Below are positions 12,400-48,619 of a DNA stretch of 64,000 bases, in pieces. The stretch covers positions 868,001-932,000 of the forward strand of contig NZ_CP049303.1 of the NCBI RefSeq assembly GCF_019443985.1. Direction: 5' to 3'. The DNA is from Liquorilactobacillus hordei DSM 19519. Its GTDB lineage: Bacteria; Bacillota; Bacilli; Lactobacillales; Lactobacillaceae. The translations under genes and the position numbers were made by a program. Each line of letters begins with the position of its first letter. The first letter of the stretch is position 1. The notes beneath the pieces are model-generated. The model searched no databases. It was not told the origin of the DNA and was given only the letters and a program-made list of their open reading frames with translations.

Positions 12400-12716
12400 T
12401 CTGGCTTTGGTAGGTATGGTTTGAAGAAAGCTAATTAGAGAGCATGTTCATTTGTAAATTAGTGTTGGGGCTGGGTCAAATAAACTTTGACCCAGCTCTT
12501 TTCTTAACACATATAATCATGTGCAATTGTTCTTTGACTAATTTTAAATTACTAATAAGCAAAGCCGATGCGTTATTCATAATTTACGAGAGCAGCCAAG
12601 GTTTAAAGCACTGTTTTCAGACTTAATTTGGGGTGAACTACAAGAGTTTTGCGGAGTTTATATCACTTTGGTGCATAATCGTATATAATTAAGTATAAAA
12701 AAAGGAGAAGCTGTGG
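12400..12716. other. Intergenic region, 317 nt, between gltX and cysS
   Basis: Holds the gltX terminator (12467-12504) and a probable cysS promoter with TATAAT at 12684-12689. The remaining 180 nt shows no convincing ORF. A T-box riboswitch would be plausible for cysS, but the conserved AGGGTGGNACCGCG element and an antiterminator/terminator pair are absent. Confidence 0.55.
12467..12504 (+). terminator. Terminator after gltX (GGCTGGGTCAAA family)
   Basis: GGGCTGGGTCAAA pairs with TTTGACCCAGCTC over 13 bp around a 5-nt loop, followed by TTTTC. This is the clearest member of the recurring hairpin family. Confidence 0.85.
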
Positions 12717-34517: not shown

Positions 34518-35261
34518 TTGGGCGAGAATATTTTTAGTGAACCCCATAAGATTTTGTTTTATGAGACTGATCGTACTAGAAGGACAACAATCGGGATGCT
34601 AGTAAATATCTTGATGCTGACTTCACAAGATCAGAGCATTGAGTTGGGATTAACTGAAGAGAAGTTAAATGAAAAAGGATATGGCTGGGTAATAACACAA
34701 CATATTCTGAAAATTGAAAGATTACCTGTATACGGTGAGAATATAAGGATATTTACGAGAGCGGATTCGTACAACCGATATTTTTGTTATCGTGATTTCT
34801 GGATTGAGGACGAAAAAGGAACGGTTATTGTGAAAATGCACAGTATCTTCGTTTTGATGGATCAGAAGAAAAGAAAGATTGCACGCTTACTACCAGAATT
34901 CATTGAGCCATATAAGAGTGAATATACTACTAAGATTGAGCGCGTACCTGACCCCAAGATTGATGAGACTAGCCAATTGATTTCAGAGAAAAACTATCGA
35001 GTACGGTTTATGGACATTGACTCAAATCAGCATGTTAATAATGTTCATTATTTTGATTGGATGATTGATGGGCTAGATGAGAATTTCTTATTAACACACA
35101 CGCTTGTAGAAATGAATATTAAGTATAAGCGTGAGGTTCATTACGGTGAGATGGTTAATACCGAGACTAGGATGGCTGAAAATCAGTTGATAACTTATCA
35201 TTTGGTTAAAGCGGGCGAAGAAGAAAGTTGCTATGCTTGCTGTACATGGGGAAAAAAGTAA
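34518..35261 (+). CDS. Acyl-ACP thioesterase (FatA/FatB-like double hotdog)
   Basis: A 247-residue protein of the bacterial acyl-ACP thioesterase family (PF01643), which releases fatty acids from acyl carrier protein. The first hotdog half holds FYETDRTRRTTIGMLVNILM and the second FMDIDSNQHVNNVHYFDWMID, with the Asp/Asn/His cluster typical of the active site. The TTG at 34518 is 17 nt after rsmI; the ribosome site is poor. A terminator hairpin that once followed it is split by the ISL3-family element. The acyl-chain preference is unknown. Confidence 0.87.
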   Translation: MGENIFSEPHKILFYETDRTRRTTIGMLVNILMLTSQDQSIELGLTEEKLNEKGYGWVITQHILKIERLPVYGENIRIFTRADSYNRYFCYRDFWIEDEKGTVIVKMHSIFVLMDQKKRKIARLLPEFIEPYKSEYTTKIERVPDPKIDETSQLISEKNYRVRFMDIDSNQHVNNVHYFDWMIDGLDENFLLTHTLVEMNIKYKREVHYGEMVNTETRMAENQLITYHLVKAGEEESCYACCTWGKK

Positions 35262-35274
35262 AAATAAAAAAACT

Positions 35275-35290
35275 ATAGGCTAGGTTAAAA
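35275..35290 (+). terminator. Left arm of a terminator hairpin split by the ISL3-family element
   Basis: ATAGGCTAGGTTAAAA at 35275-35290 is complementary to TTTTGACCTAGCCTAT at 36743-36758, apart from one mismatch. Removing the element and one target copy restores a hairpin of the GGCTGGGTCAAA family with the AATTTAAT target as its loop. Confidence 0.75.
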
Positions 35291-35296
35291 TTTAAT

Positions 35297-36734
35297 GGCT
35301 CTTTGTCAACCGCTGTTGATGGGAAATTTTTAAAAGAAAATCAATTCATTTTCGAATTGGTTTTCTTTTTTTTATTCGAATCGTAAATTCAATTCTAATC
35401 CGGGTGTAAAAATGTGACCAGTTTCTATAGCCGTATGCCGTGCGTTTAATTTGTTTGATTTTGCGATTAACACCTTCTAGTGGGCCATTTGAATAGTTGC
35501 TTGCCATCATGTTTTTAATTAATGGTAGATATTTGCGATAGGTCTTTATTGTAGTTTCAAGCTGTGGGCTGACTTTGTCAGCTCGATTTAGTGTTTTAAT
35601 GAACTTTAAATAATCACGCTTTCTTAAGGCATCAACTAGGGAATGCGCAACGAAGTAAGTGTGTTGGTAGGTTGAATCTAACTCAAGACCTTGCCAGACT
35701 AATTGTTCTTGGGTGAACCAGTTCTTTAAATGCGCAAACCATTGTGGTTTACGTTGATTTAAGCCAGAATAAGTTTTTAAAAATAAACGCCAGTGATGTT
35801 TGAGAACTCGATATTCTCGTGAATTTTGAGTGAATCGATGCATTAACTGTACGCGTGTCTGGTTCAGTGCTTGGAGTCCCATTTGAACTAGATGAAAGTT
35901 ATCGGCGATAACTTTTGCTTCTGGAAAAATTATGTGAATTACGGATTGATACTGTGCATTGAAATCAATAACTACTTGTTTAACTTTCCTACGTTCAGCT
36001 AAGGAATAGTTACTTTCAAAGTGATTTTGGATACTTCGATTAAGGCGATTAGGTAAAACAGAAACTAGCCGATGTGTATCACCATCAATGGCAATAAAAC
36101 TCATCTGATGACCAGTGGAGCGAAATTCATCAAAACACAACGTAGTTGGTAAGGTAAGCAAGGCGGTCTTAGTCTGAATCGCTAATGAATCAAGTACTCG
36201 ATTAACTGCCACTGGTGAAACATTTAATTCCTCTGCAATATCAGTAATACTACGATCTTTAGTAAGCTGTAGAATAATCATCTGTTTGGTATCTTCTGAG
36301 ATTTGACAGTGTGGTTTAACTAGCGACGTTTCAGCACTAAAAGTATGTTGCCCTCTTTTGCACAGATAACGTTGTTTAAGCAGTTTTAAGATAACTGGTC
36401 GTTCTTTGATAGGTGGCATCCTGACGTTGATCAAATTAGTTCCAAAACGGACTACTTGGGATTGGCCACAAAGTGGACAGCGCTTTATCGAATAAGTTAA
36501 TTTGGCATGAATGACTTGTTTCTTGGGATCAGAATTGTCAATACTGATACATTTAATATTTGGGTCTTGGATTTGAAGTATATTTTCGATAGAATAGTCT
36601 TGGGACATGTTTTCTCACTTGCCTTTACTTTTACTTTGGTTGGTATGTGGTGGTGCATTTGGGAACTTGTCCTTTTATTGTACATGAAAATTGGGTGTTG
36701 ATGGAAGTTCATCAACACCCAATATTTTAGAGCC
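35297..36734 (-). mobile_element. Intact ISL3-family insertion sequence, 1438 bp
   Basis: One transposase gene is flanked by imperfect inverted repeats: the left end begins GGCTCTTTGTCAACCGCTG and the right end, reversed, GGCTCTAAAATATTGGGTG. A second inverted motif, GTTGATGG, follows inside each end. An exact 8-bp target duplication AATTTAAT lies at 35289-35296 and 36735-36742. Intact transposase, ends and duplication suggest recent insertion. Confidence 0.93.
35346..36608 (-). CDS. ISL3-family transposase
   Basis: A 420-residue DDE-type transposase. The N-terminal zinc-ribbon-like CPLCGQSQVVRFG and the Cys of RYLCKRGQHTF are followed by an HTH region (SITDIAEELNVSPVAVNRVLDSL) and the DDE core: FDEFRSTG..., VIDFNAQYQSVI...VIADNFHLVQMGLQAL, and SNYSNGPLEGVNRKIKQIKR with the last Glu. 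Length is normal for the family. ATG 36608 has only a weak ribosome site, as is common in insertion sequences. Its frame is unbroken, so the element may be active. Confidence 0.95.
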   Translation of the reverse strand: MSQDYSIENILQIQDPNIKCISIDNSDPKKQVIHAKLTYSIKRCPLCGQSQVVRFGTNLINVRMPPIKERPVILKLLKQRYLCKRGQHTFSAETSLVKPHCQISEDTKQMIILQLTKDRSITDIAEELNVSPVAVNRVLDSLAIQTKTALLTLPTTLCFDEFRSTGHQMSFIAIDGDTHRLVSVLPNRLNRSIQNHFESNYSLAERRKVKQVVIDFNAQYQSVIHIIFPEAKVIADNFHLVQMGLQALNQTRVQLMHRFTQNSREYRVLKHHWRLFLKTYSGLNQRKPQWFAHLKNWFTQEQLVWQGLELDSTYQHTYFVAHSLVDALRKRDYLKFIKTLNRADKVSPQLETTIKTYRKYLPLIKNMMASNYSNGPLEGVNRKIKQIKRTAYGYRNWSHFYTRIRIEFTIRIKKRKPIRK

Positions 36735-36742
36735 AATTTAAT

Positions 36743-37161
36743 TTTTGACCTAGCCTATTTATTTGCTATGAATAAATGTGATTTATAATCTGAAATTTTC
36801 CGGCTAACTTAAAATGACTATAGCAAGGTGCTTACAGTGTTTGGAATTTCGAGTTAGTACTCAAGGCTTCTTGAGATATGACATACACTTTTTATTAATC
36901 ACTAATAAAAAAATAACATTTGTCACTTTATAATCAATATTAATAACCGATAAATATTAAAGGACTAGTAATTTAGTAACTGTACCTAAATAAAGCTGCA
37001 GGTAGAAGTTGAAATAAATAGGTGCAAAAAAATTAAAGCCATTATATAAGTGAAAGTAAGATAATTTTATGTAAAGCAAAGATGTTGTAACATTGTGCTT
37101 TTTTATAGAAGTACAGCAAGAAAATGATTAAATACGATGGGACGAGAAATGGGGAAAAAAA
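36743..37161. other. Intergenic region, 419 nt, after the ISL3 element
   Basis: The first 16 nt are the right arm of the split terminator. The remainder is AT-rich, without ORFs or a clear riboswitch. It must contain the promoter for the lipoprotein cluster; no strong -35/-10 pair stands out. TGTAAA and TGTAAC at 37070 and 37086 have the wrong spacing for a WalR box. Confidence 0.5.
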
Positions 37162-37500
37162 GTGAAAAAGAAAGTACTTATTAGTTTTATTGTCATGATG
37201 GGGTTGATCCTTACTGGATGCGGGAACAAGTTAAGCGGGGCATATACTGGTAAAATTACACTTCTCTTTGTTGAACAAAAAGATACAATGATTTTTGATG
37301 GCGACAAGGTCACAGAAAAGCAAAATGGCAAGGTTATTGATAAAGGTACATATAAAATCGATGGTGATGATCTCACAATCAAAATTAATGATTATCATCT
37401 GAGGGCTAAATTATCTGATAATCGCAATTCGTTTACCATTACGTCTGCCGATGGTATAGCTAACTTAGCTAAAGGTACAACATATACGAAAAAAGAATAA
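37162..37500 (+). CDS. Small lipoprotein, function unknown
   Basis: A 112-residue protein with a lipoprotein signal peptide, MKKKVLISFIVMMGLILTGC; the lipobox Cys is residue 20. The mature part (92 residues) is rich in beta-strand-forming residues (YTGKITLLFV, GTYKIDGDDLTIKI, SFTITSADG), and resembles small lipoproteins that carry a single beta-barrel-like domain. I cannot name the family. GTG 37162 follows GGGGAAAAAAA. It heads a cluster with two larger lipoproteins 24 and 243 codons apart in size, probably one unit. Confidence 0.8.
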   Translation: MKKKVLISFIVMMGLILTGCGNKLSGAYTGKITLLFVEQKDTMIFDGDKVTEKQNGKVIDKGTYKIDGDDLTIKINDYHLRAKLSDNRNSFTITSADGIANLAKGTTYTKKE

Positions 37501-37524
37501 AGGTATCAGGAGATGTTATTAGTA

Positions 37525-38685
37525 ATGAATAGCAGAAATAGTAGTAACCTGTCGACTAGAAGAAATAATTCACAGTTAACCTTAGGACAAAAACTACTGA
37601 AGCTAATTGGAATGATTGTTATCATGCTGTTTCTCACTACGGGTCTTGCTGCATGTGGTAGTAATCAAGCCAAGTCTCAGAAGGATAAAGCAAGCAGCGA
37701 TAGTAGTGTGACAAGTCGTACGAAGAGTAGTAATGCATATCAAAACCTGACAAAGTCCAAGGCAAAACAAGTAAAAAAAGCGGATGATGCTGTTTCAAAA
37801 TCCGTGCATGTTGCGATAGTGGTAAAAAAGAATAGTGATAAAAAAGTTAATAATCCTACTATAAGAGCGATAAAATCAATTAAAGAAATCAAAGGCACCG
37901 ACAAGAACACAAAATTGATCCGTAAGAGCTACATGGCTATTGTTGGGGTTGTCAAAAGTCCAAGCTTAATCAATATGCAGACTGCCCGCTCATATATTGG
38001 ACAAGTTAACGATTCACTACTAGCAAAAAAGATGAACAATAAATATAAGAAAAAAATGGCCAGAATAGTAGCTGCGAATACAAGCATGGATGAGAGCGAG
38101 GTACTCAATAAAACCAAACCTCTATCAAATAAAAAGTTGAAGGCAGCACAAGAAAAGGCAGAGCAAGAAAAATTAGCATCGTCTCAGAATACAAACCAAA
38201 CTAATAGTCCACAAGCTAATAGCTCAACTGCATCATCAGCACAACCAACGACAGCACAAGAAATGAACTTTTCTCAAATTCAGCAAGGAGACTATGAAAG
38301 CTTATTAGGAACATGGCAAGAAGCTGCTGTTTCTGTTAATCGCCAAGATGGAACTGGAAGTCATTGGGATGTTCCTCAAGGAGATACACTGACAGTGTCT
38401 AAAGATAAACTTGTTAATGGTACTTTGTCATTACAGGGAAATATCTTGAATGATGGAACCAACAACAATGATGTAGTGTTTAGTCAGACGAATGGTTATC
38501 TAACTGCTGGCCTTGCAGATGAAAGTGTAGCGATAAATTATTCTATTTATTTCTATCCAAAAGGAATTTCAATGTCTGATTTTGATAAAAATATTCCAAC
38601 GACAGTTGATAATTCAAAAAATCGAATAATTATTTGGACTAGTAATAATAGCTATACAGAAGTTTTTCAGAGTACAACTAACTGA
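37525..38685 (+). CDS. Lipoprotein with shared N-terminal domain and DUF6287-like C-terminal domain
   Basis: A 386-residue lipoprotein. A charged stretch precedes the hydrophobic signal segment, and the lipobox is LAAC (Cys near residue 44). The central domain, about 65-210, contains NAYQNLTKSKAKQVKKADDAV, IKGTDKNTKLIRKSYMAIVGVVK and SLINMQTARSYI, and is paralogous to the next gene. After a Ser/Gln/Thr linker, the C-terminal 135 residues (FSQIQQGDYESLLGTWQEA...) resemble DUF6287 domains of lactobacilli. ATG 37525 is 12 nt from AGGAG; the ATG at 37513 abuts that site. Function unknown. Confidence 0.8.
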   Translation: MNSRNSSNLSTRRNNSQLTLGQKLLKLIGMIVIMLFLTTGLAACGSNQAKSQKDKASSDSSVTSRTKSSNAYQNLTKSKAKQVKKADDAVSKSVHVAIVVKKNSDKKVNNPTIRAIKSIKEIKGTDKNTKLIRKSYMAIVGVVKSPSLINMQTARSYIGQVNDSLLAKKMNNKYKKKMARIVAANTSMDESEVLNKTKPLSNKKLKAAQEKAEQEKLASSQNTNQTNSPQANSSTASSAQPTTAQEMNFSQIQQGDYESLLGTWQEAAVSVNRQDGTGSHWDVPQGDTLTVSKDKLVNGTLSLQGNILNDGTNNNDVVFSQTNGYLTAGLADESVAINYSIYFYPKGISMSDFDKNIPTTVDNSKNRIIIWTSNNSYTEVFQSTTN

Positions 38686-38728
38686 AACTGATTACTAAGT
38701 GAAAATCCTATTAAAGGGAGTGGAAAAA

Positions 38729-39772
38729 ATGCCCAACAAGGAATTTTGGGGGAGAACAAAATTAAGCAAACAAATTGCGTTCGTTATTACAGCAATGTTG
38801 ATTACTATTGTTTTAACAGCATGTGGGAGCAATCAGACCAAGCAAGATAGTGGGCAAAGTACTGCAGCTAGTGTGAGCAGCAAAAATAACAATCCATATC
38901 AAAACTTATCTAAGTCAAAAGCTGAACAAGTGAAAAAAGCTGATGCAGCAGTAAAAAATGTCTTTAATGCTAATGATAAAGCTGAGCAAAAAGATGCCAA
39001 AACTGACCCCAATGTTGTTAATAGACGACCTGATAATTATGTTGCGCCTATCGTTAGTAAGGCCGAAGATAAAGCAGCAACGGCAATTGCTGAAATCAAA
39101 GGCAATGATACGAATACTAAAGATATTCGTAGAGCATATACAGATGTTGTTAATGTAGTAAAAGATAGTAGTTTAATTAATATGCAAACAGTTCGTTCGC
39201 ATATAGCAGACTTAAAGAATTCAAAATTAGCAACTCATATGGAAAAAGAATATGAACAATCGATGGTTGTTTTAGTTGTTACTCATACAAATTATGCTGA
39301 GTCACAAGTGTTAGATATGACAAAACCATTATCGGAAAAGAAATTAAAAGTTGCACAAGCAAAAGCTGCGGTAGCTGCTGCAAGTTCATCATCGGCAAGT
39401 GCAGCTGAATCCTCAAATATGGCAAAAATGTCTTCTGAAGAAACACGATCATCATCCGCTTCCCAAGCAACTTCGGCAACACAAGCAACATCAACTACAA
39501 GAGCATCAACAAATACAAATACAACACAATCGACAACGAGTCACGCAACACAGGCATCAGCAACACCTGCAAGAAGTGCAGCAGCATCTTATCATGCGGC
39601 TGCAAGTTCAACTTATCATGCACCAGCAAAAAGTTCAACTCAAGCAAAGACACCAACAGCAAGTAGCTATCATAATAATACAGTTCCACAAACATCATCA
39701 GCATCAATTCAAAGTGGTAATATTACAGGTACAAATACGACAGCTGGACGTAGTATGGATGGTGGATGGTAA
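38729..39772 (+). CDS. Paralogous lipoprotein with long Ser/Thr/Ala-rich tail
   Basis: A 347-residue lipoprotein with lipobox LTAC (Cys near residue 32). The domain at about 50-205 repeats the neighbour's motifs: NPYQNLSKSKAEQVKKADAAV, IKGNDTNTKDIRRAYTDVVNVVK, SLINMQTVRSHI and TKPLSEKKLKVAQAKA. The last 130 residues are low-complexity Ser/Thr/Ala/Gln with SYHAAASSTYHAPAK-like repeats and end in GRSMDGGW, perhaps a wall-spanning stalk. ATG 38729 follows AAAGGGAG. It seems to result from duplication with a tail exchange. Function unknown. Confidence 0.8.
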   Translation: MPNKEFWGRTKLSKQIAFVITAMLITIVLTACGSNQTKQDSGQSTAASVSSKNNNPYQNLSKSKAEQVKKADAAVKNVFNANDKAEQKDAKTDPNVVNRRPDNYVAPIVSKAEDKAATAIAEIKGNDTNTKDIRRAYTDVVNVVKDSSLINMQTVRSHIADLKNSKLATHMEKEYEQSMVVLVVTHTNYAESQVLDMTKPLSEKKLKVAQAKAAVAAASSSSASAAESSNMAKMSSEETRSSSASQATSATQATSTTRASTNTNTTQSTTSHATQASATPARSAAASYHAAASSTYHAPAKSSTQAKTPTASSYHNNTVPQTSSASIQSGNITGTNTTAGRSMDGGW

Positions 39773-40417: not shown

Positions 40418-40511
40418 AAAAGGGGAGTGTGCAGAACGTTAAATTTCGACCCAACCACCTACTCATTTATTCCGTATAAACGTGTTCCGCAATTCAGATT
40501 TTCCTAAATGA

Positions 40512-48357: not shown

Positions 48358-48619
48358 TGCTTTTAAAAGTAGAATATTAAGTAATAGTTTTAGATAATCT
48401 ACCAAGACAGCGTGATATAGGTCGGAAAAATTTGAGTTCTAATTCGAAGTTAGACGGAGAGTTTTGACTTATGGAACACGTTTATTTGTGATAATTAGGA
48501 GAACTGAATCAACATTTTTATTTTTATATCTTTATCTCAGTCGATTTTTTATGGTGCCAAGATTTTCCAAGCTTGCTATATTGCATTTTTAATGTAGGAC
48601 ATTGTTAAAATACAAATAA

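Follow-up and report, generated by a model that had tools for sequence, protein, structure and literature searches.

Introduction

Palindromic extragenic repeats are known targets of several insertion sequences. IS1397 and ISKpn1 of the IS3 family enter such repeats, as do other elements directed at REP sequences, and PMC1525189 places the REP-targeting elements in the IS3, IS110, IS4, IS256 and IS5 families, with ISPsy8 and ISRm22 entering the symmetry axis of the palindrome. The term "ISL3" does not occur in the main text of that paper. Intrinsic (rho-independent) terminators are the insertion sites of group IIC introns, as stated in PMC4424553, which cites Robart et al. 2007.

Two further reports concern the ISL3 family itself. 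PMC9208149 describes an over-representation of ISL3 elements between co-directional genes. In E. faecium, vanHAX was found inserted after an rRNA operon, halfway through a rho-independent terminator (PMC11702846). This case shares with the element described below an 8-bp duplication and an ISL3-family element, there at one end; it differs in being a composite rearrangement under drug selection, and within the accessible text of PMC11702846 the authors draw no link to target preference. We found no report of a terminator preference or an orientation rule for ISL3 elements in the open literature, subscription papers, preprints and ISfinder lying outside the scope of that search, and the available text of PMC12056078, PMC2828477 and PMC6211511 holds nothing bearing on such a preference.

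The insertion behind the thioesterase gene

The window analysed here is a stretch of 64,000 nucleotides from Liquorilactobacillus hordei DSM 19519 (contig NZ_CP049303.1), and positions are numbered from its first letter. An acyl-ACP thioesterase gene lies on the forward strand at 34518..35261 (ORF; Pfam Acyl-ACP_TE 6.8e-39, Acyl-ACP_TE_C 5.5e-26) and is followed by a complete insertion sequence of 1438 bp, GGCTCTTTGT...TTTTAGAGCC, on the reverse strand at 35297..36734. The long ORF of the element (35346..36608, reverse strand) encodes a transposase of 420 amino acids and runs antisense to the thioesterase gene. A first-pass annotation of this DNA had placed the element in the ISL3 family, which is borne out by Pfam (DDE_Tnp_ISL3 4.8e-49, with HTH_Tnp_ISL3 and Zn_ribbon_ISL3 above cut-off) and by NCBIfam (transpos_ISL3, NF033550, 285.6 bits against a cut-off of 180). 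In a sequence comparison with solved structures the transposase had no match at E <= 1. The outer six bases of the two ends match (GGCTCT/AGAGCC), but no more than 9 of the 18 outer terminal bases do, and in the accepted ISL3 relatives the figure is 9-14 of 18. Target duplications of 8 bp are a trait of the ISL3 family, and here the duplication AATTTAAT is found at 35289..35296 (left copy) and 36735..36742 (right copy), both on the forward strand. The element therefore has both the transposase and the 8-bp duplication in common with the family (Pfam PF01610/PF13542/PF14690; NCBIfam NF033550). A group IIC intron was considered and rejected because the long ORF is an ISL3 transposase; no intron family reached its gathering score in the window.

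The insertion splits a terminator hairpin. Arms complementary across the element, as the earlier annotation had claimed, are present on the forward strand at 35275..35290 (5' arm, ATAGGCTAGGTTAAAA) and 36743..36758 (3' arm, TTTTGACCTAGCCTAT), and the rejoined site of 48 nt folds, at -23 kcal/mol, into a hairpin of 16 bp (z = -7.3, with none of 200 shuffles as stable). The tract on its 3' side, TTTATTT, is T-rich with an interruption. The annotation had also equated the duplication with the loop; it does include the 6-nt loop, but it reaches down into the top two bases of the left arm as well (overlap 35289-35290). We located the thioesterase gene in 14 of 14 genomes of the genus, L. hordei included, and found no empty version of the split hairpin. 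In the three closest relatives the gene is followed by a different, intact terminator hairpin (L252-L254). Judged from the sequence, the claim that the insertion is harmless to genes is plausible. Farther downstream, beyond the element, three successive ORFs (37162-39772) look lipoprotein-like by eye.

Scoring and sampling of insertion sites

A site was scored as lying in a terminator zone when it fell within a margin of 8 nt of a single hairpin, on either strand, with a span of at most 60 nt, a loop of at most 14 nt, a dG of -12 or below and at least 6 T in the 8 nt at its 3' base. Zones so defined make up 11.8% of intergenic positions in 464 kb of the L. hordei genome (the window and 20 other stretches, each 20 kb long). 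The intergenic null was matched for the A+T content of the target 8-mer and, being drawn from L. hordei, is approximate for other genomes; a local-shift background, taken 60-290 nt from the same sites, takes in coding DNA. P values assume independence of sites, several thresholds were tried, and gene neighbours were assigned by ORF rules that differ between counts.

For other Lactobacillaceae, 63 loci were considered and 26 dropped (19 without ends, 5 with a duplication match below 7/8, 2 for length); merging same-site repeats reduced 48 sites, the 11 from L. hordei included, to 39, two of which were L. hordei sites again, leaving 26. Plasmid copies numbered 14, fetched from the best 60 of 139 matching records, and seven of them had usable ends. 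A scan of named genomes yielded 11 loci, the majority of them incomplete or distant, and end detection on two of these (L057, L058) produced no accepted site. Of 246 Lactobacillales genomes, 86 had an ISL3 transposase by NCBIfam search (E <= 1e-60). From 13 of the 86, selected as multi-copy genomes, 80 copies were taken, of which 47 were kept at a duplication match of at least 7/8 and 33 dropped.

MITE-like remnants in relatives, which have no clean duplications, were excluded from all counts. Two MITE-like internally deleted forms of the L. hordei ISL3 element, of 387 and 400 bp and with both ends kept, occur in other species of the genus (L031 in G008, L032 in G011). A relative with 93.6% identity sits at one identical site in plasmids of both L. 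hordei and L. nagelii (L265, L266); it has no target duplication, half a terminator arm lies on one side, and it was also left out of the counts. In genome G198 two ISL3 elements (L227, L228; C1:856767-859694 and 1773920-1776847) are interrupted close to the left end by other DNA of about 1.46 kb, with an overlap of 4 bases (query 57-60) at the point where the end hairpin of a related element lies; this could possibly be an insertion sequence inside the terminator of an insertion sequence.

Copies of the element in the L. hordei genome

The genome (2.44 Mb, three contigs) holds 11 full copies of the element, each flanked by an 8-bp target duplication, and their 99.9-100% identity points to recent activity. 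By eye, a terminator contains or adjoins the insertion in 10 of the 11: L001, L003, L004, L005, L008 and L009 are inside hairpins, L006, L010 and L011 border a terminator hairpin, and L002 is about 12 nt away from one. L007 has a weak hairpin only. The automated zone captures 8 of 11, missing L002, L005 and L007, compared with 1.41 expected from the A+T-matched intergenic null (P = 8e-6). Under the same null, five of the 11 fall within 6 nt of a loop centre where 0.28 would be expected (P = 4e-6). Two copies, L010 on the chromosome and L011 on contig C2 (55 kb, probably a plasmid), differ from the remaining nine by the same two bases, suggesting that the element has been exchanged between these replicons.

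Relatives in Lactobacillales and beyond

The first-pass annotation had raised target choice as a possibility and had proposed aligning the copies and counting those in terminators. The counts speak for target choice both in L. hordei and in its relatives, and they lie above every background. In other Lactobacillaceae, whose elements have a transposase identity of about 37-55%, 16 of 33 sites are in the zone (4.19 expected, P = 6e-7), and in the further Lactobacillales, from 10 genomes, 25 of 47 (background 7.4%, P = 2e-16). Pooling the ISL3 sites gives 49 of 91 in the zone and 42 outside it, with at least one in-zone site for 19 of 25 distinct elements. Observed values stay above background in all three sets whichever of 18 combinations of margin, energy and T count is applied; the L. 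hordei set gives the weakest result, at a requirement of 7 of 8 T (2-3 of 11, P from 1e-4 to 0.08). Insertion at the loop is strong in L. hordei only, the other two sets giving 2/33 (P = 0.2) and 4/47 (P = 0.004). One group of genomes (G231/G238/G260) has two of six ISL3 sites in the zone. Across the L. hordei element and its Lactobacillales relatives, terminators are preferred as targets.

In a sample of the phylum, ISL3 was detected in 24 of 249 genomes, L. hordei included, at E <= 1e-70. Of 42 loci examined, 23 were usable, all of them outside Lactobacillales, five being too short and 14 without ends; an exact duplication was required, and the ends of a few accepted elements are doubtful. 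Seven of these 23 sites are in the zone (background 8.9%, P = 0.003), and the signal is weak and lineage-bound: the element of G738 has 0/6, and that of G636, whose sites are AT-rich, has 2/7, both of them weak-looking hits. The preference is thus shown for elements of Lactobacillales and perhaps some others, and not for the ISL3 family at large.

Orientation of the insertions and predicted terminators carried by the element

When the L. hordei sites are all oriented so that the minus strand encodes the transposase, the gene to the left is directed at the insertion in 11 of 11 cases. Among the 91 pooled sites, insertions between co-directional genes are forward in 32 cases and reverse in 7 (P = 7e-5), the remaining contexts being convergent (31), divergent (6), inside an ORF (12) and open-ended (3). 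Where a terminator is called on one strand only, the count is 23 forward to 6 reverse (P = 0.002) at a cut-off of -10, at which 21 sites have calls on both strands and 41 have none. By these counts the terminated gene usually lies beside the left end of the element and has the transposase antisense to it, and polar insertion is shown with moderate strength. The excess of ISL3 elements between co-directional genes in PMC9208149 fits this polarity.

The gene-side end carries a putative terminator of its own. At 35332..35373 on the forward strand, 35 bp inside the element, an inward-facing intrinsic terminator is predicted from inverted repeat, sequence and fold, with 16-nt arms (35332-35347 and 35354-35369) and a run of eight T at 35366-35373; the automated rule detects it in either orientation, with the stronger call on the forward strand. 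Near the right end a stable hairpin with 17-nt arms (36687..36726, reverse strand, -21.9 kcal/mol, from inverted repeat and fold) is followed on the minus strand by TTTT; it falls below the automated rule (6 of 8 T) and might hinder transcription entering towards the transposase. Across 25 distinct elements, the first 170 nt of the left end contain a predicted inward terminator in 18 and an outward one in one, and the right end an inward terminator in 15 and an outward one in 12; for mid-element windows the count is 1 of 25 on each strand.

The earlier annotation had held that the thioesterase gene has lost its terminator and that transcription may now run into the element. Against this stands the inward hairpin with its eight T, of a kind likewise found in the 18 elements. 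Given its position, transcription would be predicted to end some 80 nt into the element, and the thioesterase gene probably still terminates there. We infer, on good grounds, that insertion would exchange one terminator for another.

The polarity also bears on how a terminator would be recognised. In transcription-coupled targeting the cue would be RNA polymerase that pauses or terminates at the U-tract, through an R-loop, a melted bubble or supercoiling, and not the DNA of the hairpin. Both orientation counts, 23 to 6 and 32 to 7, agree with this. So does the distribution of the 91 sites around the hairpin, since those on the 3' side (31) and the 5' side (26) each exceed those at the top (17), the remaining 17 having no hairpin. 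Insertions at the hairpin top, five of 11 in L. hordei, and those before the stem nevertheless lie away from the point of termination. We see transcription coupling as possible although we lean against it; it is a variant of a terminator preference of the transposase and is compatible with it.

Base composition of the target

Over the 91 sites, A/T makes up 95-97% at positions 3-6 of the duplication and drops at positions -2 and 11. A plain sequence preference, for an AT-rich core with G or C some bases outside it that is incidentally found in terminators, would account for this pattern. However, a position-weight model built from the 80 sites of other genomes raises the expected zone share in the L. 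hordei genome only from 11.8% to 14.8%, while 8 of 11 was observed. Base composition does not account for the terminator preference, and sequence preference is an unlikely explanation for it.

Other insertion sequences as controls

A further explanation is survivorship, in which insertion is random or merely directed to AT-rich DNA and only those copies in non-essential intergenic 3' regions persist. The ISL3 sites are indeed mostly intergenic: depending on the ORF rule 12 or 17 of 91 are inside an ORF, the latter rule leaving 74 of 91 in intergenic space, of which terminators occupy a part. The A+T-matched null is itself intergenic, however, and against it the L. hordei copies are still in excess (8/11 against 1.4); survivorship also fails to place five of 11 at the loop.

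Elements of other families were scored in the same way. In G356 an IS256-type element (IS256a, Pfam Transposase_mut; 16 copies usable of 18 examined) has 0/16 in the zone and 0/11 among its intergenic copies, and two groups of the L. hordei genome, c4 and c7, together have 0/9 and 0/5 (4 of 4 copies of c4 and 5 of 7 of c7 scored; c7 belongs to the IS3 family by NCBIfam, c4 by end similarity only). These surviving intergenic copies, 0/11 and 0/5, count against survivorship. ISL3 itself has two of six sites in the zone in G356, so that the contrast with IS256a within that genome is weak. A second IS256-type element of G356 (IS256b, nine copies usable of 15) has 4/9 at terminators (L419, L420, L424, L429); further copies of both IS256a and IS256b exist in this genome. 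In L. hordei the IS3-family groups c3 and c5 (L187-L189, L220-L224) have 5/8 in the zone, all five at loops, with more by eye, which disqualifies these IS3-family groups as plain negative controls. Groups c2a and c2b have 1/4 in the zone. The groups come from 44 rve matches in the L. hordei genome, of which 39 were grouped, with one group, c16, kept outside zone scoring.

Some elements of several families therefore hit terminators and others ignore them, which argues against survivorship as the sole cause, and we rate it slightly lower again than sequence preference. The same counts mean that terminators are targeted by several families and that the preference is not unique to ISL3.

The interspersed repeat

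The annotation had assigned the split hairpin to a family seen at several places, and it is in fact the 5' part of a repeat of 163 nt that has 40 matches in the 464 kb. These represent about 33 places, since the hairpin is matched on the opposite strand as well. Thirty-six of the 40 matches are intergenic, and 11 of the 14 Liquorilactobacillus genomes, L. hordei included, contain the repeat. It had no Rfam match at gathering score in any of the three sources searched. At the thioesterase locus a diverged copy of this genus-wide repeat extends over 36735..36885 on the forward strand (nhmmer 4.1e-13, 1.1e-28 on iteration; 8.7e-28 for 36735-36883), and the window has further copies at 12469-12604 (+), 40427-40503 (+) and 48410-48519 (-). 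The repeat consists of the terminator hairpin and, by eye, a second, longer and imperfect palindrome.

The stem of the hairpin is kept by compensatory change. In a set of 24 hairpins (23 of the 40 repeat matches and the split hairpin) 10 of 15 stem pairs are changed on both sides, a number reached by 29 of 500 shuffles; double-changed cells number 38 compared with 16.4 in shuffled sets, and none of 500 shuffles reaches that number or the covariation score.

An IS3-family element of 1473 bp (group c16, family by NCBIfam) uses this repeat as its target. From the flanking letters, 15 of its 16 copies (L190-L205, for example G000:C3:6018-6317 and 397410-397709) are at one base of the repeat, L195 being the exception. 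CTT flanks both sides in 14 of the 15, and L198 has TTT on the right; L190 and L205 agree fully in their flanks and may stem from a single event. This site specificity is close to the IS1397 case, and it fits a role of terminator-bearing repeats as landing pads.

The analogy with IS1397 that had been drawn for the ISL3 element, as an insertion into palindromic repeats, is supported in that it too enters palindromic extragenic repeats. About five of the 11 L. hordei sites (L001, L003, L004, L008, L010) have repeat-like flanks by eye, with a model score for L001 only, and copies within this one palindrome family are thus short of a majority. That the Liquorilactobacillus repeat and not terminators would be recognised, in the manner of IS1397, is very improbable despite these flanks, and as a sole explanation it is contradicted, since L002, L005, L006, L009 and L011 lie in or beside terminators unlike the repeat and other genera share the preference.

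Discussion

We consider it probable, with good confidence, that the element is a recently active ISL3-family insertion sequence whose transposase prefers intrinsic terminators as targets. Its insertions are found at the hairpin top, in the A-tract before the stem and in the T-tract after it. The transposase may sense a feature of the terminator, either an AT-rich core between inverted repeats able to extrude or, as an alternative cue, the strand-asymmetric T-tract, possibly during a pause of RNA polymerase; hairpin DNA and paused polymerase would be the two main candidates for what is sensed. Cutting would then take place with an 8-bp stagger within the AT-rich core, and the left end would be joined on the gene side. 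One terminator would be destroyed and another brought in within the first 65-150 nt of the element, so that the host gene would stay terminated and the cost of insertion would be low.

The closest described systems differ from this in several respects. Compared with IS1397-type elements, the present target is terminators generally, without one shared sequence, and the insertion is polar. Group IIC introns resemble the element in that it, too, is at intrinsic terminators above chance, but they are retroelements with a ribozyme and a reverse transcriptase, whereas the present element has a DDE transposase and an 8-bp duplication; unlike the introns, it is found at the hairpin top and in the A-tract as well. 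What is new here is polar insertion combined with inward-facing terminators at the gene-side end.

Whether the ISL3 elements of Lactobacillales form a widespread DDE lineage that uses terminators as structural, polar targets, and through terminator-for-terminator exchange has gained a low-cost niche in which copies build up, is a broader proposition that seems to us evenly poised. It addresses the question of how some insertion sequences reach many copies without killing the host, to which a DDE lineage that picks terminators, inserts mostly in one orientation and carries terminators of its own would be a concrete and testable answer. It also offers a means of telling if DNA structure or the transcription machinery is what a transposase reads, and it predicts where such elements land and when neighbouring transcripts become fused, as in E. 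faecium. Landing in terminators while bringing their own stop signals may be how these elements spread at little cost to the host.
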